Origin: Streptomyces rimosus
GTDB taxonomy: Bacteria > Actinomycetota > Actinomycetes > Streptomycetales > Streptomycetaceae
Assembly: GCF_008704655.1 (NCBI RefSeq)
Contig: NZ_CP023688.1
Location: 7,570,501 to 7,634,500 of the forward strand
Reading direction: 5' to 3'
DNA length: 64,000 nt
Below, piece by piece: positions 19,130 through 45,842 of the stretch; position 1 is the first letter of the stretch, and every line of letters starts with the position of its first letter. A program made the position numbers and the translations under genes. Below the pieces are notes generated by a model, which was not told the origin of the DNA, did not search any database, and saw only the letters and a list, made by a program, of their open reading frames with translations.

Positions 19130-20722
19130 GTGAGGAAACGCGACCAGTGGCTGGCCGCACCGCTGGGGGCAGGGCTCGTCGCCGCCCTGCTCAGCGGCTG
19201 CGGAACGGGTGACGGCAAGAGCGCCGGGACCGGCAACCCGGTGGTGATGGGCATGACCGACAAGATCGTGTCCATCGACCCCGCAGGCGGCTACGACCCG
19301 GTCTCGTGGGTGCTGTTCACCAACGTCTTCCAGTCGTTGCTCAGCTTCCCCAAGGGCAGCACGACACCGGAACCCGAGGCCGCCGAGTCCTGCGGCTTCG
19401 CCGAGGGCGGCAGCACCGTCTACAAGTGCACCCTCAAGGACGGCCTGAAGTTCAGCAACGGCCACGCGCTGACCTCCGAGGACGTCAAGTTCTCCTTCGA
19501 CCGGATCAAGCGCATCAACGACAAGCGCGGTCCGGCCGTGATGTTCGCCGGGCTCGACAAGGTCGAGGCCCCCGACGCCAAGACCGTCGTCTTCCGCCTC
19601 AAGTCCGCCGACGCGACCTTCCCCATGAAGATCGCCTCCGGTGCCGGCTCCATCGTCGACCACAGCGAGTACGCGGCCGACAAGCTGCGCACCGACAACA
19701 AGGCCGTCGGCTCCGGCGCCTACACCCTGGAGGAATACGACCCCGAGGACGAGGCGGTCTTCGGCGTCAACGGCTCCTACGAGGGCCCCGCCAAGGTCAA
19801 GAACACCGGCATGACCATGAAGTTCTTCAAGAGCCCCGACAAGCTCAAGAAGGCGGTCCAGGACGGCTCCATCGACCTCGCCTACCGCGGTCTGGACATG
19901 AAGGACATCGCCTCGCTGGAGCAGGCGACCGCCACCCAGAAGCACGGCATCCAGGTCGTCCAGGGCAACAGCGCCGAGGTCATGCACCTCGTCTTCAACA
20001 TGCACGACCCGGTCGCCGGCAAGCTCGGCGTCCGCAAGGCCATCGCCCACCTCCTGGACCGCTCCACGCTGGTCCGGGACGTCTACAAGCGCACCGCCGA
20101 GCCGCTGTACTCGATCGTCCCCGCGGGCATCACCGGCCACAACACGGCCTTCTTCGCCAGCTACGGCGACCGGCCGCAGCCCGACAAGGCCGCCGCCGCC
20201 CTGCGCGAGGCCGGCTACGGCAACGGCAAGAAGGTGCCGCTCACCCTCTGGGCCACCCCCGTCCGCTACGGCCCCGGCACCGTCCCGGCCTTCCAGGAGA
20301 TCGCCCAGCAGCTCAACGCCAGCGGCCTCTTCGACGCCCAGGTCAAGAGCGTGCCCATCGACGAGTTCGAGAAGGGCGTCGAGGCCGGGAAGTACGGCGC
20401 GTACGTCAAGGGCTGGGTCCCCGACTACCCGGACCCCGACAACTTCACCCAGCCGTTCTTCGGCAAGGGCAACGTCCTCAACAACAACTACGACGCCAAG
20501 CGCATCACCTCGAAGCTGCTGCCCGGCACCGCGGGCCAGCCGGACCGGCAGGCCACCAAGCCCGCCTTCCGCGAGATGCAGGACATCGTCGCCGAGGACC
20601 TGCCCGTCATACCGATCTGGCAGGGCAAGCAGTACGCCGTCGCCGGCGAGAACATCGCCGGCCTCCAGTGGACGCTGGACGCCTCGACGGTGTTCCGGTT
20701 CTGGGAGATCAGCAAGGGGTGA
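19130..20722 (+). CDS. Peptide-type ABC substrate-binding lipoprotein (SBP family 5), copy 2
   Basis: This 530-aa paralogue of the upstream lipoprotein has lipobox LLSGC with Cys24. The GTG at 19130 is preferred because GAGGAA lies 8 nt before it; a GTG five codons earlier has no ribosome site. The domain pattern matches copy 1, including KFSNGHALTSEDVKFSFDRI, VRKAIAHLLDRSTLVRDVY and PVIPIWQGKQYAVAGENI. It probably binds a different oligopeptide or cation complex at the outer membrane face. No transport genes are adjacent. Transcription ends at an exceptionally stable hairpin. Confidence 0.92.
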   Translation: MRKRDQWLAAPLGAGLVAALLSGCGTGDGKSAGTGNPVVMGMTDKIVSIDPAGGYDPVSWVLFTNVFQSLLSFPKGSTTPEPEAAESCGFAEGGSTVYKCTLKDGLKFSNGHALTSEDVKFSFDRIKRINDKRGPAVMFAGLDKVEAPDAKTVVFRLKSADATFPMKIASGAGSIVDHSEYAADKLRTDNKAVGSGAYTLEEYDPEDEAVFGVNGSYEGPAKVKNTGMTMKFFKSPDKLKKAVQDGSIDLAYRGLDMKDIASLEQATATQKHGIQVVQGNSAEVMHLVFNMHDPVAGKLGVRKAIAHLLDRSTLVRDVYKRTAEPLYSIVPAGITGHNTAFFASYGDRPQPDKAAAALREAGYGNGKKVPLTLWATPVRYGPGTVPAFQEIAQQLNASGLFDAQVKSVPIDEFEKGVEAGKYGAYVKGWVPDYPDPDNFTQPFFGKGNVLNNNYDAKRITSKLLPGTAGQPDRQATKPAFREMQDIVAEDLPVIPIWQGKQYAVAGENIAGLQWTLDASTVFRFWEISKG

Positions 20723-20739
20723 CGCCCCCGGACGCACCG

Positions 20740-20786
20740 ACGGCCCGGCCCGCCGCCGCTCTTCGGAGCGGGGCGGGCCGGGCCGT
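20740..20786. terminator. Strong terminator with UUCG loop
   Basis: A long GC stem from ACGGCCCGG to its complement CCGGGCCGT is capped by CGCTC-TTCG-GAGCG. It sits between the convergent lipoprotein and response-regulator genes and probably serves both. Confidence 0.85.
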
Positions 20787-20839
20787 TGTGTGAGGTGGGG
20801 CGGGCCGCCGGCGCGGGGGCGCTCGTACGGCCGTACGGC

Positions 20840-21511
20840 TCACTGGGCGCCGGGGCGCACCAGGCCGCTCTCGTACGCGTACACCGCGGCCTGGACCCGG
20901 TCGCGCAGCCCCAGCTTCGTCAGCACATGCCCGACATGCGTCTTGACCGTCGTCTCGCTCACGAACAGGTCCGCGGCGATCTCCGCGTTCGACAGCCCGC
21001 GCGCCACCAGCTTCAGCACCTCCACCTCACGCTCGGTGAGGGTGTGCAGCGTGTCCGGCACCGGCTCCTCGCCGGACGGCAGATGGCCCGCGTACTTGTC
21101 CAGCAGCCGGCGCGTGATGCTCGGCGCCAGCATCGCCTCGCCCGCCGCGACCACCCGGATCGCCTGCACCAGCTCCTGGGCCGGCGCGTCCTTCAGCAGA
21201 AAGCCGCTGGCCCCCGCGCGGAGCGCCTCGACCACGTACTCGTCCAGGTCGAACGTCGTCAGCACCAGCACCTTCGCCGGACCGTCCTTCGCCGGGCCGG
21301 TGATCTGCCGGGTCGCCTCGACCCCGTCCATCCGCGGCATCCGGATGTCCATCAGCACCACGTCGGGCTGCAGCGCCCGCACCTGCTCCAGCGCCTGCAG
21401 ACCGTCCCCGGCCTCGCCGACGACCGCGAGATCCTGCTCGGCCTCCAGAATCATCCGGAAGCCGGTACGCAGCAGCGGCTGGTCGTCGACCAGCAGGACG
21501 CGGATTGCCAC
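20840..21511 (-). CDS. NarL/LuxR-type response regulator without adjacent kinase
   Basis: This 223-aa protein has a receiver domain with acidic pair Asp9-Asp10, phosphoacceptor Asp55 (VVLMDIRMPRMDG), Thr and Lys switch residues (LTTFD, LKDAP). A C-terminal LuxR helix-turn-helix follows (LTEREVEVLKLVARGLSNAEIAADLFVSETTVKTHVGHVLTKLGL). The GTG at 21511 has AAGGAG about 6 nt upstream. It follows the RecB-family nuclease by 13 bp on the same strand and may be co-transcribed with it, which would put it under the DNA-damage-type promoter. No histidine kinase is present nearby, so the partner is unknown. Confidence 0.92.
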   Translation of the reverse strand: MAIRVLLVDDQPLLRTGFRMILEAEQDLAVVGEAGDGLQALEQVRALQPDVVLMDIRMPRMDGVEATRQITGPAKDGPAKVLVLTTFDLDEYVVEALRAGASGFLLKDAPAQELVQAIRVVAAGEAMLAPSITRRLLDKYAGHLPSGEEPVPDTLHTLTEREVEVLKLVARGLSNAEIAADLFVSETTVKTHVGHVLTKLGLRDRVQAAVYAYESGLVRPGAQ

Positions 21512-21524
21512 AGGAACTCCTTCG

Positions 21525-22670
21525 TTAGACCAGGTCCATTCTGCCCTGCCCCTCTCCGGGCGCCGCCACAGGGAGCGACCGCGCCTGGCCGGGCACCGGC
21601 AGCGGATACGGCGGGGGAGTACCGCCGAATTCCGGGCACACCGCCTGGTGGTCGCACCAGCCGCACAGCTTCGTACGGCGCGGGCGCCAGTCGCCGGTCT
21701 CGGCCGCCCGCTGGATGGCGTCCCACAGCGCCAGCAGCTTGCGCTCCACACCGCGCAGATCCGCCTCGGTCGGGTCGTACGTCAGCACGTCGCCGCTGCC
21801 CAGGTACACCAGCTGGAGCCGGCGCGGCACGATGCCACGCAGCCGCCACATCACCAGCGCGTAGAACTTCATCTGGAACAGCGGGCCGTCGGCGTACTCC
21901 GGGCGGGGCGCCTTGCCGGTCTTGTAGTCGACGAGCCGCACCTCACCGGTGGGCGCCACGTCCACCCGGTCGATGAAACCGCGCAGCTGGAGGCCCGAGT
22001 CGAGCACCGTCTCCACATACAGCTCGCGGTCGGCGGGCTCCAGACGGGTCGGGTCCTCCAGCGTGAACCACCGCTCCACCAGCGCCTCGGCGTCCGCCAG
22101 CCAGGCCGCCAGCCGCTCGCCCGCCGGATCGTCCACGAACAGCTCGGCCAGCTCCGGCCGCTTCGCCAGCAGCTTCTCCCACTCGCCCGGCACCATCGCC
22201 CGCGCGCCGACCGCCGTACGCTGCGCCGCCGGGGCGTCGAAGAGGCGCTCCAGCACCGCGTGCACCACCGTGCCGCGCGTCGCCGCCGCACTCGGCTTCT
22301 CCGGCAGCTTGTCGATCACCCGGAAGCGGTACAGCAGCGGACACTGCATGAAGTCGCTCGCCCGCGACGGGGAGAGGGAGAGGGGGCGGGTGGCGGGGGA
22401 GGGGGGTGGTGGGGGTGCTGGGGTTTCCTTGGCTGCCGGGGCTGCCGGGGCTGCCGGGGCTGCCGGGGCTGCCGGGGCTGCCGGTGCGGCCGGTGCGTCC
22501 GGTGTGGCCGTCCCGGTCTCGTGGACCACCTCGGCCGTTCCCGCCTCGCGGGTCCCCTCGGCCTCAGCGGCCGTCGCGGCTCCGCCGGCCGCTCCGGCCC
22601 CGCCGGTGCCGTCCTGCCCGCCGTCCCCGCCCGCGGCGTCCGGCACGGCCTTCTCGGTGCTCGTTCCCAT
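21525..22670 (-). CDS. RecB-family PD-(D/E)XK exonuclease with Fe-S type cysteines
   Basis: This 381-aa protein has two parts. Residues about 1-95 are low-complexity Gly/Ala/Pro-rich sequence with an Ala-Ala-Pro repeat. Residues about 96-381 form a RecB/Cas4-like nuclease: SPSRASDFMQCPLLYRFRVIDKLPE, the early His of HAVLERLF, Asp in RLVDYKTGKAPR (PD-(D/E)XK core with Lys), and a C-terminal LCGWCDHQAVCPEFGG. With the Cys in MQCP these could hold an iron-sulphur cluster, as in AddB. It probably processes DNA ends. The start at 22670 lies 8 nt after a TAGGGT -10 box, so the mRNA is nearly leaderless. Confidence 0.88.
   Translation of the reverse strand: MGTSTEKAVPDAAGGDGGQDGTGGAGAAGGAATAAEAEGTREAGTAEVVHETGTATPDAPAAPAAPAAPAAPAAPAAPAAKETPAPPPPPSPATRPLSLSPSRASDFMQCPLLYRFRVIDKLPEKPSAAATRGTVVHAVLERLFDAPAAQRTAVGARAMVPGEWEKLLAKRPELAELFVDDPAGERLAAWLADAEALVERWFTLEDPTRLEPADRELYVETVLDSGLQLRGFIDRVDVAPTGEVRLVDYKTGKAPRPEYADGPLFQMKFYALVMWRLRGIVPRRLQLVYLGSGDVLTYDPTEADLRGVERKLLALWDAIQRAAETGDWRPRRTKLCGWCDHQAVCPEFGGTPPPYPLPVPGQARSLPVAAPGEGQGRMDLV
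22431..22484. repeat. Six perfect 9-bp tandem repeats inside the nuclease gene
   Basis: GGCTGCCGG is repeated six times without change, then degenerates. On the minus strand it encodes Pro-Ala-Ala units in the N-terminal tail of the RecB-family nuclease. Being a multiple of three, copy-number change would alter tail length without breaking the frame. Confidence 0.9.
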
Positions 22671-22678
22671 GACATACG

Positions 22679-22701
22679 ACCCTACGGCCCGCCACTGACA
22701 G
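22679..22701 (-). promoter_or_regulatory. RecA-NDp / PafBC-type DNA-damage promoter of the nuclease gene
   Basis: On the minus strand CTGTCAGTG (22693-22701) is followed by exactly 8 nt and TAGGGT (22679-22684). The actinobacterial RecA-independent damage promoter is TTGTCRGTG, 8 nt, TAnnnT; only the first base differs. The start codon lies 8 nt beyond the -10 box. PafB and PafC, the known activators in mycobacteria, are encoded in this window. Confidence 0.7.
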
Positions 22702-22862
22702 CTCCCGCAACCGAGGGATCACAATGGGAGACCGAGACGGGGCGTCGCGGAGCGTTCCGCATACCATCGACGCCAGACCCCTTCGCCCTGCATGATCGAC
22801 AGGCCGTACCGGACCGGAACCGGACGGACAGGAGCGAAGGCCGCAATCGACGAGGGGACACC

Positions 22863-24173
22863 GTGGACGAGAGTGGGAAGCCGCAGGACCCCGAGGAGTC
22901 CGCGCACCCCCAACCGCCCAACCCGCCCGGACCGTCCGACCCGGCCCGCGGTGCCGGCCGTACGCGGCCGTCCGGAAGCCGCCCCTCCCCGCAGCCGGCG
23001 CCCAAGGACCAGCCGGGGCGACGCACCGGCGGCGGCATCCTCATGGGCCGGCCCTTCGGCGTACCGGTCTACGTGGCGCCCAGCTGGTTCATCGTCGCCG
23101 CGCTGATCACCTGGGTCTTCGGCGGCCAGCTCGAACGGGTCCTGCCCGAGCTGGGCGCGGGCCGCTACCTGGTCTCGCTCTTCTTCGCCGTCGCCTTCTA
23201 CGCGTCGGTACTCGTGCACGAGCTCGCCCACACCGTCGCCGCGCTGCGCTTCAAGCTCCCCGTACGCCGCATCCAGCTCCAGTTCTTCGGCGGCGTCTCG
23301 GAGATCGAGAAGGAGTCCGAGACCCCCGGCCGCGAATTCGTCCTGGCCTTCGTGGGGCCGCTGCTCTCGCTCGTCCTGGCGGGGCTCTTCTACGGCGGCA
23401 TGGAGCTGGTCGAGCCCGGTACCGTACCGGGCGTCCTGCTCGCCGGTCTGATGATCTCCAACCTGATCGTCGCCGTCTTCAACCTGCTCCCCGGCCTCCC
23501 GCTGGACGGCGGGCGGATGCTCCGCGCCGTCGTGTGGAAGATCACCGGCAAGCCGATGACCGGCACCGTCGCCGCCGCCTGGGTCGGCCGCGCGCTCGCC
23601 ATCTCGGTCCTGATCGGGCTGCCGCTGCTCACCCACACCGGTGCCCTGGGCAACGCCCCCACGGACCTGGGCGGCGCCGACTCGATCACCGACGCGCTGC
23701 TCGCCGCGATCCTCGCCGCGATCATCTGGACCGGCGCGGGCAACAGCCTGCGCATGGCCCGGCTGCGCGAACGCCTCCCGGACCTCCAGGCCCGTACGCT
23801 CACCCGGCGCGCCGTCCCCGTGGAGGCCGACACCCCGCTGTCCGAGGCACTGCGCCGCGCCAACGACGCGGGGGCGCGCGCCCTGGTCGTCGTGGACCGC
23901 GCGGGCCGGCCCACCGCCGTCGTCCGCGAGACCGCCATCGTCGGCGTCCCCGAGCACCGCCGCCCCTGGGTCCCCGTCAGCGGCCTGGCGCAGGACCTCA
24001 AGGACGGCATGCGGGTCTCCGCCGAACTGGCGGGCGAAGACCTCCTGGACTACCTGCGCGCCACCCCGGCCACCGAGTACCTGGTGGTCGAGGAGACCGG
24101 CGAGATCTACGGCGTCCTGTCCACCGCGGACGTGGAACGCGCGTTCGTGGCGGCCATGGCGCGTCCGTCCTGA
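22863..24173 (+). CDS. Site-2 protease family membrane metalloprotease with CBS domains
   Basis: This 436-aa M50 protease has a Pro-rich cytosolic N-tail (about 1-55). Membrane segments follow, with HELAH at 119-123 (zinc and catalytic Glu) and PGLPLDGGRML with Asp215 as third zinc ligand. A C-terminal CBS pair (about 320-430; VEADTPLSEALRRANDAGARALVVVD, EIYGVLSTADVERAF) probably senses an adenine nucleotide. The family cleaves membrane-embedded anti-sigma factors or signal peptides. The GTG at 22863 has GAGGGGA upstream. It is divergent from the RecB-family nuclease and in the same direction as trmI, but 566 bp of repeat-rich DNA separates them. Confidence 0.92.
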   Translation: MDESGKPQDPEESAHPQPPNPPGPSDPARGAGRTRPSGSRPSPQPAPKDQPGRRTGGGILMGRPFGVPVYVAPSWFIVAALITWVFGGQLERVLPELGAGRYLVSLFFAVAFYASVLVHELAHTVAALRFKLPVRRIQLQFFGGVSEIEKESETPGREFVLAFVGPLLSLVLAGLFYGGMELVEPGTVPGVLLAGLMISNLIVAVFNLLPGLPLDGGRMLRAVVWKITGKPMTGTVAAAWVGRALAISVLIGLPLLTHTGALGNAPTDLGGADSITDALLAAILAAIIWTGAGNSLRMARLRERLPDLQARTLTRRAVPVEADTPLSEALRRANDAGARALVVVDRAGRPTAVVRETAIVGVPEHRRPWVPVSGLAQDLKDGMRVSAELAGEDLLDYLRATPATEYLVVEETGEIYGVLSTADVERAFVAAMARPS

Positions 24174-38678: not shown

Positions 38679-39668
38679 ATGGCCATTGCCAAGGCCGAGC
38701 GGCTGATGAATCTGGCGCTGTGCCTTCTGGGTACCCGTCGCCCGCTGACCAAGCGTGAACTGCGTGCCTCCATCGAGGCGTACGTGGAGGCGTTCGGCAC
38801 CGGGGACGGCGGCACCGGCAGCGACGACTCCTTCAACCGGATGTTCGAGCGCGACAAGGACGACCTGCGCGAACTGGGCCTGGTCATCGAGACCGTCGAG
38901 GGACTGGACGGCGAGACCGGCTACCTCGCGCGCCGGGACAGCAACCGCCTCCCCCCGATCACCCTGGACGCCGCCGAGGCCGCGGCCCTGGGCCTGGCCG
39001 CCAAGATCTGGCAGCAGGCCCGGCTGGCCGGCGCCGCCAGCGGCGCCCTGCAGAAGCTCCGCGCGGCCGGCATGCCCTTCGAGGACGACGGTTCCTTCGA
39101 GGCCCAGCAGCCGCACAGCGCGCTCGAGCCCCGTATCCCCGCCCACGAGGCCGCCTTCGAGCCCCTGATGCTCGCCTGCCGCGACCGCCGGCCCGTGGTC
39201 TTCGACTACCGCAAGTCCAACGCCGCCCGCCCCGAACAGCGGCAGGTCGAGCCCTGGATACTGGAGTGCTGGCGCGGCCACTGGTACCTGGCCGGCTGGG
39301 ACCGCGGCCGCCAGGCCGAACGCGTCTTCCGGCTCTCCCGTATCACCGGCAAGGTCCGCTCCCGGCAGGGGAAGTTCACCGCCGAGGTGCCCGACCACGT
39401 CACCGTCCGCGAGACGGTGGAGAGCTGGGCGGGCGAGACCGCCACCGGCACCGCCCGCATCAGACTGCGCGCCGACCACGGCTACCCGCTGCGCGCCCGC
39501 GCGCTGTCCATCCGCGAGCTGGGCGGCGGCTGGGACGAGCTGGAAATCCCCTACGGGCACGGACTCGACGCCTGGCTCGTCGAGTTCGGCCCCGACGTGG
39601 TGGTGCTGGAACCCGCCGAACTGCGGGCCGACGTCGTGGACCGGCTGCGCGCCGTGGCCAAGGGCTGA
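38679..39668 (+). CDS. pafB: WYL-domain regulator PafB
   Basis: This 329-aa protein has an N-terminal winged helix (AKAERLMNLALCLLGTRRPLTKRELRASI, FERDKDDLRELG), a central WYL domain (about 150-240; VFDYRKSN, WYLAGWDR, RVFRLSRITG) and a C-terminal WCX extension. In mycobacteria PafB and PafC together activate the LexA-independent DNA-damage regulon from TTGTCRGTG-type promoters and appear to sense single-stranded DNA. The name comes from its location near pafA, not from a role in pupylation. The ATG at 38679 follows AAGAAGGGG. It is 21 bp from pafC. Confidence 0.94.
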   Translation: MAIAKAERLMNLALCLLGTRRPLTKRELRASIEAYVEAFGTGDGGTGSDDSFNRMFERDKDDLRELGLVIETVEGLDGETGYLARRDSNRLPPITLDAAEAAALGLAAKIWQQARLAGAASGALQKLRAAGMPFEDDGSFEAQQPHSALEPRIPAHEAAFEPLMLACRDRRPVVFDYRKSNAARPEQRQVEPWILECWRGHWYLAGWDRGRQAERVFRLSRITGKVRSRQGKFTAEVPDHVTVRETVESWAGETATGTARIRLRADHGYPLRARALSIRELGGGWDELEIPYGHGLDAWLVEFGPDVVVLEPAELRADVVDRLRAVAKG

Positions 39669-39689: not shown

Positions 39690-40640
39690 ATGGCTACGAA
39701 CGCGATCGACCAGACCCGGCGCATGCTGTCGCTGGTGACGTACCTGCGCGAGCGCCCCGGCGCCCGGGTCTCCGACGTCGCCCGCGCCTTCGGCATCTCC
39801 GAGGACGAGCTGATCGCCGACCTCGACGTACTGCCGATGTGCGGTACGAGCTTCCGCGGCGGCGACCTGCTCGACATCGACACCGACGGCGACCGCATCT
39901 GGTGGCACAACCCCGACGACGTCGCCGAACCGCTGCGCCTGGCCGCCGACGAGGCCACCGCCCTGCTCGTGGCCGCGCGCGCGGTCGCCACCCTGCCCGG
40001 TCTGCGCGAGGGCGACCGGCAGGCGCTGCTGCGCGCCACCGCCAAGCTGGAGGCCGCGGCGGGCGAGGCGGCCGGCGCCAGCTCCCGCGTCTCGGTCACC
40101 TTCGAGTCCGAGGGCGGCGTCTTCGCCGACGTCGACCGGGCCATCGCCGAGCGGCGCCGGCTGTGGCTTCGCTACTACTCGCCCGCGCGCGACGAGCTGA
40201 CCGAGCGCGAGGTGGACCCGATCCGGCTGTTCGCGGTGGGCCACACGTACGTGGAGGCGTGGTGCCGGCTCTCGGAGGCGCGCCGCACCTTCCGGCTCGA
40301 CCGGGTCGCCGAGATCAAACTGCTGGACGCCCCCGCCGACCCGCCGCCGGTCGAGCTGCGCGATCTGTCCGAGGGGCTGGTGCAGCCGGCCGCCGAAGAT
40401 CCCGAAGTCGTCGTCGAGGTGGGACCCGGCGGGCGATGGGTGGCCGAGTACTACCCCCACGACAGCGCCGAGGAACTGCCCGACGGCGGCCTGCGCATCA
40501 CCCTGCGCACCCCCGACCCCGCCTCGCTGCGGCGGCTCGCGCTGCGCCTGGGCCGGGACGGCCGTATCGTCGCGCCCCAGGCACTCGCGGACAGCGCGCG
40601 GCAGGCGGCCCGGCAGGCCCTAGTGGCGTACGGCGAGTAG
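39690..40640 (+). CDS. pafC: WYL-domain regulator PafC
   Basis: This 316-aa partner of PafB has an N-terminal winged helix (QTRRMLSLVTYLRERPGARVSDVARAFGISEDELIADLDVL), a WYL domain (about 140-220; RRLWLRYYSPARDELTEREVDPIRLF, TYVEAWCRLSEARRTFRLDRV) and a WCX domain. The tandem pafB-pafC order and tight spacing suit the known PafBC heterodimer. Candidate targets in this window are the RecB-family nuclease and the helicase. The start is ATG at 39690. Confidence 0.94.
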   Translation: MATNAIDQTRRMLSLVTYLRERPGARVSDVARAFGISEDELIADLDVLPMCGTSFRGGDLLDIDTDGDRIWWHNPDDVAEPLRLAADEATALLVAARAVATLPGLREGDRQALLRATAKLEAAAGEAAGASSRVSVTFESEGGVFADVDRAIAERRRLWLRYYSPARDELTEREVDPIRLFAVGHTYVEAWCRLSEARRTFRLDRVAEIKLLDAPADPPPVELRDLSEGLVQPAAEDPEVVVEVGPGGRWVAEYYPHDSAEELPDGGLRITLRTPDPASLRRLALRLGRDGRIVAPQALADSARQAARQALVAYGE

Positions 40641-42989: not shown

Positions 42990-43012
42990 TTGTCAGAGGT
43001 GGCCGGTAGGCT
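42990..43012 (+). promoter_or_regulatory. RecA-NDp / PafBC-type promoter of the helicase gene
   Basis: TTGTCAGAG (42990-42998), exactly 8 nt, then TAGGCT (43007-43012). It matches TTGTCRGTG, 8 nt, TAnnnT at all but one box position. The ATG follows 10 nt later, giving a leader of only a few bases. Confidence 0.7.
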
Positions 43013-43022
43013 CGTAAGCACG

Positions 43023-45842
43023 ATGACCGAGGACATGTCCCCTGCTGAGCGCTACGCCGCCGCCAAGCTGCGGGCGGCGGAGCAGGCCACCGCACTCGCC
43101 CCCTTCCGTGAGATGTACGACTTCGCGCTGGATCCGTTCCAGATCGACGCGTGCAAGGCTCTGGAGGCCGGGAAGGGAGTGCTGGTCGCGGCCCCGACCG
43201 GATCCGGCAAGACGATCGTGGGCGAGTTCGCCGTCCACCTGGCCCTGGAGCAGGGCCGCAAATGCTTTTACACGACGCCCATCAAGGCGCTGTCCAACCA
43301 GAAGTACCAGGACCTGGTGCGGCGCCACGGCGCGGACCGGGTCGGGCTGCTGACGGGTGACAACAGCGTCAACTCCGAGGCGCCGGTGGTCGTGATGACC
43401 ACCGAGGTGCTGCGGAACATGCTGTACGCGGGCTCCCGGTCGCTGGCCGGCCTCGGCTATGTGGTCATGGACGAGGTGCACTATCTGTCCGACCGCTTCC
43501 GGGGCGCCGTCTGGGAAGAGGTGATCATTCACCTGCCCGAGTCGGTCACCCTGGTCTCGCTGTCCGCGACGGTCTCGAACGCCGAGGAGTTTGGCGCCTG
43601 GCTGGACACCGTACGCGGCGACACGGAAGTGATCGTCTCCGAGCACCGCCCGGTGCCGCTGTGGCAGCACGTCCTCGCCGGGCGCCGGATGTACGACCTC
43701 TTCGAGGAGCGCGAGGGCCAGGGGAAGGGCAAGGCCGGGCGCCGCGAGGTCAACCCGGATCTGGAGCGGCTGGCCCGGCTGGAGAACAGCCGCCCGACGT
43801 TCGGCCGCGACAAGCGCCGGGGCCGCAACCAGCGCGAGGCGGACCGGGAGCGCGAGCGGCGCCAGCGCAGCCGTATCTGGACCCCGGGCCGCGCCGAGGT
43901 GATCGACCGGCTGGACCAGGAGGGCCTGCTGCCGGCGATCACGTTCATCTTCAGCCGGGCCGGGTGCGAGTCCGCCGTGCAGCAGTGCCTGTATTCGGGC
44001 CTGCGGCTCAACGACCAGGAGGGCCGGGCCAGGGTCCGCGCCATCGTGGAGGAGCGGACGGCCGGCATCCCCGACGAGGACCTGCATGTTCTCGGCTACT
44101 ACGAGTGGCTGGAGGGGCTGGAGCGGGGGATCGCCGCGCACCACGCGGGCATGCTGCCGACCTTCAAGGAGGTCGTCGAGGAGCTGTTCCTGAAGGGGCT
44201 GGTCAAGGCCGTCTTCGCGACGGAGACGCTGGCGCTGGGCATCAACATGCCCGCGCGTTCGGTGGTGCTGGAAAAGCTCGTCAAGTGGAACGGCGAGCAG
44301 CACGCCGACATCACCCCCGGCGAGTACACCCAGCTCACCGGCCGTGCCGGGCGCCGCGGTATCGACGTCGAGGGCCATGCGGTGGTGCTGTGGCAGCGCG
44401 GCATGGACCCGGGCGCCCTGGCGGGCCTCGCCGGTACGCGTACGTATCCGCTGCGCTCGTCCTTCAAGCCGTCGTACAACATGGCGGTCAACCTCGTCTC
44501 GCAGTTCGGGCGGCACCGCTCGCGCGAACTGCTGGAGATGTCGTTCGCGCAGTTCCAGGCGGACAAGTCGGTGGTCGGGATCTCCCGGCAGGTGCAGCGC
44601 AACGAGGAGGGCCTGGACGGCTACAAGGAGTCCATGACCTGCCACCTCGGCGACTTCGAGGAGTATGCGCGGCTGCGCCGGCAGCTCAAGGACCGCGAGA
44701 CGGAGCTGGCCAAGCAGGGCGCGGCGCAGCGCCGGGCCGCCGCCGCTGCCGCGCTGGAGAAGCTGCGGCCGGGCGACGTCATCCACGTACCGACGGGGAA
44801 GTACGCGGGCCTGGCGCTGGTGCTGGACCCGGGCATGCCGTCCGGGCGGACCAACGGGCACCGCGGCCATGACGCGCACGACGGGCCCCGCCCGCTGGTG
44901 CTGACCGCCGAGCGGCAGGTCAAGCGGCTGGCGTCGATCGACTTCCCGGTGCCGGTGGCGCCGCTGGACCGGATGCGCATCCCCCGGACGTTCAATGCGC
45001 GCAGCCCGCAGTCGCGCCGCGACCTGGCGTCCGCGCTGCGCACGAAGGCCGGGCACATCGCGCCGGAGCGGCACCGCAAGCAGCGGGCGACGGCGGCCGA
45101 CGACCGCGAGATCGCGCGGCTGCGCACGGAGATCCGCGCGCATCCCTGCCACGGCTGCGACGAGCGCGAGGACCACGCGCGCTGGGCCGAGCGCTACCAC
45201 CGGCTGCTGCGGGACACCCGGCAGCTGGAGCGCCGTATCGAAGGCCGTACGAACACCATCGCGCGCACCTTCGACCGGATCTGCGGTCTGCTGACCGAAC
45301 TCGGCTATCTGGAAGGCGACACGGTCACGGACGAGGGCCGGCGGCTGGCGCGGCTCTACGGCGAACTGGACCTGCTGGCGAGCGAATGCCTGCGCGCCGG
45401 CGTCTGGAACGGACTGGGCCCCGCCGAACTGGCCGCCTGCGCTTCGGCGTTGGTCTACGAGTCGCGCCAGGCGGACGACGCGGTGGCGCCGAAGCTGCCG
45501 TCGGGCAAGGCGCGGGACGCGCTCAGCGAGATGGTGCGGATCTGGGGCCGGCTGGACGCCCTGGAGGAGGATCACAAGATCAACCAGGCGGAGGGCGTCG
45601 GCCAGCGCGAGCCTGACCTCGGCTTCGCCTGGGCCGCGTACCGCTGGGCCTCCGGCTTCGGCCTGGACGAGGTGCTGCGCGAGGCGGAGATGCCGGCCGG
45701 TGACTTCGTGCGCTGGTGCAAGCAGCTGATCGACATCCTCGGCCAGCTCGCCGCCGCCGCACCGCCGGAGGTGGCGCGCAACGCCCGCAAGGCCGTGGAC
45801 GCGGTGCTGCGCGGCGTGGTGGCGTACTCGTCGGTGGGGTGA
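43023..45842 (+). CDS. helY: Ski2/Mtr4-like DEAD/DEAH-box helicase (HelY family)
   Basis: This 939-aa superfamily 2 helicase has the Walker A APTGSGKT near residue 57, the DEVH box in VVMDEVHYLSDRFRG, motif III SLSATVSN, a second RecA domain with TFIFSRAGCE and motif VI QLTGRAGRRGID, and a C-terminal DSHCT-type helical domain (about 740-939). It unwinds RNA or DNA:RNA. The ATG at 43023 (MTEDMSPAERYAAAK) is preferred over an upstream ATG inside the promoter. The DNA-damage-type promoter suggests a role in repair or RNA surveillance after damage (inference). Confidence 0.94.
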   Translation: MTEDMSPAERYAAAKLRAAEQATALAPFREMYDFALDPFQIDACKALEAGKGVLVAAPTGSGKTIVGEFAVHLALEQGRKCFYTTPIKALSNQKYQDLVRRHGADRVGLLTGDNSVNSEAPVVVMTTEVLRNMLYAGSRSLAGLGYVVMDEVHYLSDRFRGAVWEEVIIHLPESVTLVSLSATVSNAEEFGAWLDTVRGDTEVIVSEHRPVPLWQHVLAGRRMYDLFEEREGQGKGKAGRREVNPDLERLARLENSRPTFGRDKRRGRNQREADRERERRQRSRIWTPGRAEVIDRLDQEGLLPAITFIFSRAGCESAVQQCLYSGLRLNDQEGRARVRAIVEERTAGIPDEDLHVLGYYEWLEGLERGIAAHHAGMLPTFKEVVEELFLKGLVKAVFATETLALGINMPARSVVLEKLVKWNGEQHADITPGEYTQLTGRAGRRGIDVEGHAVVLWQRGMDPGALAGLAGTRTYPLRSSFKPSYNMAVNLVSQFGRHRSRELLEMSFAQFQADKSVVGISRQVQRNEEGLDGYKESMTCHLGDFEEYARLRRQLKDRETELAKQGAAQRRAAAAAALEKLRPGDVIHVPTGKYAGLALVLDPGMPSGRTNGHRGHDAHDGPRPLVLTAERQVKRLASIDFPVPVAPLDRMRIPRTFNARSPQSRRDLASALRTKAGHIAPERHRKQRATAADDREIARLRTEIRAHPCHGCDEREDHARWAERYHRLLRDTRQLERRIEGRTNTIARTFDRICGLLTELGYLEGDTVTDEGRRLARLYGELDLLASECLRAGVWNGLGPAELAACASALVYESRQADDAVAPKLPSGKARDALSEMVRIWGRLDALEEDHKINQAEGVGQREPDLGFAWAAYRWASGFGLDEVLREAEMPAGDFVRWCKQLIDILGQLAAAAPPEVARNARKAVDAVLRGVVAYSSVG

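Follow-up and report, generated by a model that had tools for sequence, protein, structure and literature searches.

The question raised by this locus is how transcription is initiated at a gene for a RecB-family nuclease that is located within the window, by which is meant the whole 64-kb stretch of DNA analyzed. The initial annotation proposed that a short sequence immediately preceding the gene is a DNA-damage promoter of the RecA-NDp type, with PafB and PafC as its likely activators. The features that bear on this proposal are listed in Table 1. Read on the minus strand from 22701 to 22679, the sequence is composed of the box CTGTCAGTG, an eight-nucleotide spacer (GCGGGCCG), and the -10 element TAGGGT; it is followed by CGTATGTC and then by the ATG at 22670. 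The start codon occupies positions 22670-22668, and eight nucleotides lie between it and the -10 element. Upon re-reading of the sequence, this arrangement proved to be just as originally described, including a fit to the box consensus at all positions except one. The sole mismatch is a C in place of the first T. Because this base varies among the 64 distinct sites of the genome (T in 38, C in 14, G in seven, and A in five), as described below, the deviation is an ordinary one.

Table 1 Features of the window that are relevant to the proposed promoter and its activator.
Feature	Position	Strand	Remarks
-26 box CTGTCAGTG (PafBC/RecA-NDp box)	22693..22701	-	8/9 to TTGTCRGTG; core in 80/80 listed orthologs
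8-nt spacer GCGGGCCG	22685..22692	-	N8 in 51/53 genome sites
-10 element TAGGGT (TANNNT)	22679..22684	-	T, A, and last T present in 79/79 usable orthologs
Predicted transcription start	22670..22672	-	At the ATG or up to 2 nt before it; based on the usual -10 to +1 distance
PD-(D/E)XK (RecB-family) nuclease, 381 aa	21525..22670	-	Pfam PF12705 (PDDEXK_1), E 1.1e-36
CAGGGCAGAATGG element, possible regulator promoter	21536..21548	-	Before the response regulator
NarL/LuxR-type response regulator	20840..21511	-	Pfam Response_reg + GerE; 13 nt behind the nuclease
PafB, presumed activator subunit	38679..39668	+	Best PDB hits 7p5x, 9fnd, 6sj9; WYL + WCX
PafC, presumed activator subunit	39690..40640	+	Best PDB hit 7p5x, chain named PafC; HTH_PafC + WYL + WCX
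Second site, TTGTCAGAGGTGGCCGGTAGGCT	42990..43012	+	One mismatch in the core; the ATG at 43023 follows after 10 nt
DEAD/DSHCT helicase gene downstream of the second site	43023..45842	+	Pfam

A search of the 64-kb window with the pattern TTGTCAGTGGC-N6-TAGGGT, which contains 17 fixed bases, yielded two matches with three or fewer mismatches versus 0.11 expected on the basis of shuffled sequences, and the nuclease site differs from the pattern at a single position. When the shorter pattern TGTCRGTG-N8-TANNNT was allowed up to two mismatches, 11 matches were observed versus 8.3 expected, and thus matches of this looser kind within the window are at the level of chance and uninformative. The site before the nuclease gene is not due to chance.

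The conservation of the site was assessed in the best 80 of 574 confirmed relatives of the nuclease gene, and these 80 all belong to Streptomyces. All 80 of these orthologs have the site, with the core perfect in 77 and altered at one position in three. The distance from the -10 element to the ATG is confined to eight (49 loci), seven (28 loci), or six nucleotides (three loci). For the 79 usable loci, thinned to 54, the column conservation is 0.98 for the box, 0.92 for the spacer, and 0.91 for the -10 element, as compared to 0.48 for the upstream flank. In Nonomuraea gerenzanensis, which belongs to another order, the sequence TGTCGGGG-N8-TAGAGT, with one core mismatch, is positioned seven nucleotides 5' of the ATG. 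An additional 21 genomes were sampled from another family of the class, suspected by us to be the Mycobacteriaceae; one of these (G100) had no match to the nuclease and was left out, leaving 20 loci. The full core is exact in three of them and contains one mismatch in seven. A looser form, TGTC-N12-TANNNT, which was chosen after inspection of these same 20 loci, is found 5-9 nucleotides before an in-frame, open start codon in 18, versus none of the 20 with the reversed pattern and 1.0 of 20 with shuffled upstream stretches. In the other two of these 20 loci, not even this relaxed pattern was found.

The gene product itself has the hallmarks of its family. All 80 listed orthologs share, without variation, a histidine, aspartates, a DYK motif, and four cysteines. 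The PDDEXK_1 profile, together with the catalytic residues, fits a RecB-like nuclease of the PD-(D/E)XK type, for which nuclease activity is predicted. Nucleases of the Cas4/AddB type carry an iron-sulphur cluster with such cysteines, and by analogy the four-cysteine pattern suggests a cluster in this protein as well. A sequence search with the nuclease against solved structures gave no hits up to an E value of 0.1. The promoter was also thought to fix the start of a gene with an odd N-terminus, and indeed the reading frame from the ATG is open, and full length, in each of the 80 listed orthologs. The region preceding the nuclease domain is of low complexity, and in these 80 proteins it ranges from 12 to 285 residues with a median of 27. 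In the window, a GGGGCTGCC-type repeat at 22430-22490 encodes an Ala/Pro stretch in the N-terminus of the nuclease. The S. rimosus ortholog of the nuclease shows 95% identity over the best segment.

A scan of the entire genome, as put forward in the initial annotation, gave 65 matches to the exact core TGTCRGTG-N8-TANNNT in the 9.36-Mb chromosome that contains the window, whereas the reversed pattern gave two. Note that two of the matches, L001 and L145 (C1:3319 and 9357815), are copies of one site that face in opposite directions, each ∼3 kb from an end of the chromosome, in an apparent terminal repeat; downstream of the site is encoded a 182-residue protein without a Pfam match. L145 was left out as a copy of L001, and 64 distinct sites were retained. 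The box has the A of TGTCAGTG in 55 of these. When the spacing was varied from two to 14 nucleotides (TGTCAGTG-N2..14-TASNNT), 51 of the 53 matches were found at N8, and the reversed pattern gave six over all spacings combined. This rigid spacing bears on one alternative, namely that the site is an ordinary, constitutive sigma-HrdB promoter with CTGTCA or TTGTCA as its -35 hexamer. Such a hexamer does resemble TTGACA, and TAGGGT would serve reasonably well as a -10 element, but the two are separated by 11 nucleotides instead of 16-18, and the N8 spacing holds in nearly all of the sites. In addition, a simple consensus scan of positions 20700-23000 revealed neither a sigma-70-type promoter nor a standard -35 element at 16-18 nucleotides from the -10, and many of the other sites in the genome precede repair genes. 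A constitutive promoter of this type is considered very unlikely.

Similar sets of sites are observed throughout the genus. The genome of S. coeruleorubidus contains 56 core sites and no reversed matches. Eight further named Streptomyces contain 19 to 76 core sites each, for a total of 400, with four reversed matches; one of the eight is a genome of S. rimosus that is closely related to the one to which the window belongs. Altogether, nine of the ten Streptomyces genomes counted have 41-76 core sites, and the tenth has 19. The strict form, TTGTCAGTG, was employed for a class-wide scan of 148 genomes. It occurs six to 37 times in each of 14 Streptomyces genomes, that of the window included, with no reversed matches. 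One of the eight genomes mentioned above, that of S. cyaneofuscatus, appears by its coordinates to be among these 14. In the remaining 134 genomes of the class, the strict form is matched in 43, at most 11 times in any one, and the reversed pattern occurs seven times. A match to PafB was found in 146 of the 148 genomes, and 89 of these 146 have no strict motif match. A comparison of PafB presence with motif counts was considered as a test and was uninformative: the two genomes without PafB lack a strict site, but so do the 89. As judged from these sequences, there is in Streptomyces a large and conserved set of sites, which we regard as a weightier result than the single site before the nuclease gene. 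The window itself holds a second candidate site in front of a helicase gene (Table 1), and the orthologous helicase gene of S. coeruleorubidus (L174) is preceded by an exact core.

The genes located behind the sites were identified by selecting, for each of the 64 distinct sites, the open reading frame of best coding character that starts within 400 nucleotides. Sixty of the encoded proteins were scanned with Pfam, the frames behind L025, L027, L115, and L127 having been left out. Twenty-one of the 60, the nuclease included, are repair, replication, or nucleotide-pool proteins; in the remaining 39, Pfam gave domains of different kinds or no domain at all. As a general figure, repair genes make up on the order of 1-2% of a Streptomyces genome. 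Represented among the 21 are RecA, ThyX, two UvrD helicases, the large subunit of exonuclease VII, an HhH-GPD glycosylase, DnaX, a DinG-like helicase (a DEAD domain protein, assigned to DinG by eye), an Mfd-like protein (UvrB_inter domain, assigned to Mfd by eye), MazG, an AlkZ-like protein, DNA polymerase III alpha, an O6-methylguanine methyltransferase, UvrB, an exonuclease with a BRCT domain, an HHH protein of the RecD2 type, the PD-(D/E)XK nuclease, RuvC, MgsA/RarA, a uracil-DNA glycosylase, and an AlkB-like 2OG oxygenase. For 19 of the 64 sites, a site of S. coeruleorubidus is followed by a gene for a relative with 50% identity or more, and for the other 45 there was no match at these thresholds. 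The S. coeruleorubidus set adds UvrA, UvrC, a beta-clamp protein, and a protein read as RadA-like.

Several other genes behind the sites deserve mention. Transporters of the MFS and ABC types occur behind sites in both of the genomes compared (L121/L187 and L015/L214), which hints that export may form part of the response. In the S. coeruleorubidus set, a 78-residue frame without a Pfam match (L220:1529-1762) contains two stretches that match the 181-residue macrodomain chain of 5e3b, presumably the structure of SCO6735; in comparison to 5e3b, the frame appears to be internally shortened. In the genome of the window, a GAF histidine kinase (L166:3762-5595, near 7307733 of C1) has a PafBC-type site ending six nucleotides before its start codon, and an overlapping frame resembles a regulator of the NarL type.

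Given the nature of these genes, the classical SOS response has to be weighed. The LexA regulon of S. venezuelae is likewise a damage response, and according to the available excerpts of PMC9380542 its LexA targets include recA, ruvC, and possibly uvrA, which are of kinds also present in the sets described here. A repair-type gene such as that for the nuclease might be under LexA control. LexA, however, is a repressor with a box of its own, and that box was not found at the nuclease gene. Specifically, there is no GAAC-N4-GTTC with one or fewer mismatches in positions 22601-22900, and CGAAC-N4-RTTY is absent from both strands between -250 and +60 of the site in all 80 listed orthologs. An exact GAAC-N4-GTTC lies near just one of the 64 genome sites (none in the control region), although degenerate SOS boxes, of which the one at S. 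venezuelae recA is an example, would escape so strict a pattern. That the nuclease gene belongs to the LexA regulon is exceedingly improbable.

The position of the start codon with respect to the -10 element is a second feature of the sites. As can be seen from the 64 distinct sites, an ATG or GTG begins at +6 after the -10 element in 17 and at +7 in 15, for a combined 32, whereas at offsets of 12 to 79 the mean is 1.7 per offset and the maximum is six. In S. coeruleorubidus, the corresponding numbers are seven and 22 of 56 sites with a background of 1.9. By contrast, 23 of the 64 sites, including those of thyX, ruvC, and dnaE as judged from the open reading frames chosen, have no ATG, GTG, or TTG at 5-9 nucleotides downstream. 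The leaderless arrangement is frequent, but not universal, among the sites. With a -10 to +1 distance of the usual length, the mRNAs having a start codon at +6 or +7 would begin at the start codon itself. On the same basis, the leader of the nuclease mRNA is predicted to be zero to two nucleotides long, and hence the message would be leaderless. A literature search by title and abstract for PafBC in combination with leaderless mRNA returned nothing on the topic.

The initial annotation further suggested that the promoter may bring the response regulator located 13 bp downstream into the damage response. The nuclease stop codon is at 21525-21527, the regulator starts at 21511, and 13 nucleotides lie between them. 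A regulator that is 92-100% identical follows the nuclease gene in all 80 listed loci, with a gap of 13-15 nucleotides in 36 and an overlap in three, and no terminator-like site was found in positions 20700-23000. All of this would suit a two-gene operon carried by the damage promoter. At other loci, however, the gap extends to 274 nucleotides. Two apparent gaps of 938 (L097) and 1017 (L067) nucleotides are likely to be artefacts of the stop search, as the usual element and a ribosome site precede the regulator there as well. That element, CAGAATGG, is found within 160 nucleotides before the regulator in 76 of the 80 listed loci, and in 53 of the 80 it is located 31-36 nucleotides from the regulator start. 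By eye it is also maintained past the end of the nuclease frame, in noncoding DNA, for example in L053, L062, L084, L092, L094, and L107. On this pattern of conservation, the element is likely to be the regulator's own promoter, and co-induction of the regulator with the nuclease is therefore a toss-up. In short, the regulator follows the nuclease in all of the listed loci, their joint induction by damage is doubtful, and the operon remains a tentative proposal, somewhat less favored than separate transcription. A histidine kinase that is itself preceded by a PafBC-type site (L131) was considered as the partner of this orphan regulator and set aside; by eye, the overlapping frame behind it looks like a response regulator belonging to the kinase.

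Which protein, then, would act at the site? The two activator genes had been placed 16 kb away, and this is correct: PafB begins at 38679, ∼16 kb from the site. Over nearly their full lengths, the PafB and PafC proteins of the window match 7p5x and 9fnd, which we take to be RNA polymerase-PafBC complexes of M. smegmatis and which contain mycobacterial proteins and a mycobacterial promoter. The sequence RMFERDK, a stretch of the recognition helix, is identical in the PafB of the window, in 7p5x, and in 6sj9, and by our own count it contains R44 and R48. These are the two arginines of the PafB recognition helix that point outward, as stated in the part of PMC6789036 available. The complex described in print has PafB on the -26 motif and PafC in contact with sigma domain 4, with single-stranded DNA serving as the signal (PMC11804915, in excerpt).

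A variation on this theme is that the damage promoter is real and conserved but is served in Streptomyces by a different activator, either ClgR or another regulator with a WYL domain. ClgR is reported to recognize the motif in mycobacteria (cited in the accessible portion of PMC5656591), and with PafB occurring in 146 of the 148 class genomes, motif counts cannot be set against its presence. Against such a substitution are the RMFERDK sequence of the recognition helix, which is unchanged between the PafB of the window and the two solved PafB proteins, and the box, spacing, and -10 element, which are those given for M. tuberculosis PafBC, namely TGTCGG/TGTCAG-N10-TA-N3-T (PMC8151990, in the part available). 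We regard a different activator as improbable.

The proposal that the site is of the PafBC/RecA-NDp type is thus supported by its conservation across the genus, the near-obligatory spacing, the many repair genes behind other sites, and the conserved stretch of the PafB recognition helix. We assign a probability of roughly 85% to the reading in which the housekeeping RNA polymerase uses the site as a PafBC-dependent (RecA-NDp) promoter, with PafB on the box, a leaderless nuclease mRNA, and membership in a LexA-free set of sites. In this scheme, single-stranded DNA would accumulate and be bound by PafBC. PafB would then contact the TGTCAGTG box at -26, and PafC would contact sigma region 4, standing in for a -35 element. 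Transcription would begin at the ATG of the nuclease gene or within two nucleotides of it to give a leaderless mRNA, and the promoter would be part of a LexA-free damage-response set with some 40-76 members in most Streptomyces genomes. The binding of PafBC, the induction by damage, the dependence on PafBC, the precise point at which transcription begins, and any continuation of the transcript into the regulator gene are all inferred from sequence. For the genus as a whole, Streptomyces quite probably possesses a large, LexA-free PafBC regulon that would encompass recombination, excision repair, base repair, replication, and transport, with about half of its members expressed as leaderless mRNAs in which the start codon keeps a fixed place relative to the -10 element.

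The motif was reportedly defined by Gamulin in 2004. A close known counterpart is the RecA-NDp/P1 promoter of mycobacterial recA, a member of the PafBC regulon. The Streptomyces sites resemble it in the TGTCRG-type box, in the distance to TANNNT, in the lack of a -35 element, and in the repair genes downstream. They differ in that the box is mostly TGTCAGTG, in that half of the sites have a start codon 6-7 nucleotides after the -10 element, and in that their dependence on PafBC is presumed. Within the genus itself, RecA-NDp promoters with the same motif have been described for other genes, recA and SCO6735 of S. coelicolor, and that of SCO6735 is induced ∼5-fold by ultraviolet light (PMC5087735, in excerpt). 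A review extends the motif to other Actinobacteria (PMC8223512, as excerpted). The available part of PMC8151990 describes overexpression of Rv2119, the gene for a RecB-like exonuclease of M. tuberculosis, when a recA mutant is treated with mitomycin C; the likeness to the nuclease of the window that is drawn here is one of annotation and of presumed damage response.

For Streptomyces as a whole, the literature is less settled. From the excerpts of the 2022 study of LexA in S. venezuelae (PMC9380542), an initial search suggested that the PafBC motif of M. smegmatis is not conserved in that organism, and the existence of such a response in Streptomyces remains to be shown. Every Streptomyces genome counted here has sites; S. 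venezuelae is not among them. A possible reason for the discrepancy is the preference for A in the Streptomyces box as opposed to the TGTCGG that is frequent in mycobacteria (PMC8151990, in the portion available). A search by title and abstract yielded no paper on a PafBC regulon in Streptomyces. Known already were the motif, its activator, and the occurrence of the motif at a minimum of two Streptomyces genes. What is new is the scale, that is, dozens of sites per genome with a near-obligatory spacing, many of which are located before repair genes.

The presence of the same switch before dozens of genes, many of them repair genes, suggests that Streptomyces have a second, LexA-free response to DNA damage. 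If true, a large PafBC regulon would answer the question about Streptomyces that the 2022 study left open. That start codons gather 6-7 nucleotides after the -10 element raises a further question, namely why genes of the damage response so often dispense with a leader for ribosome binding.
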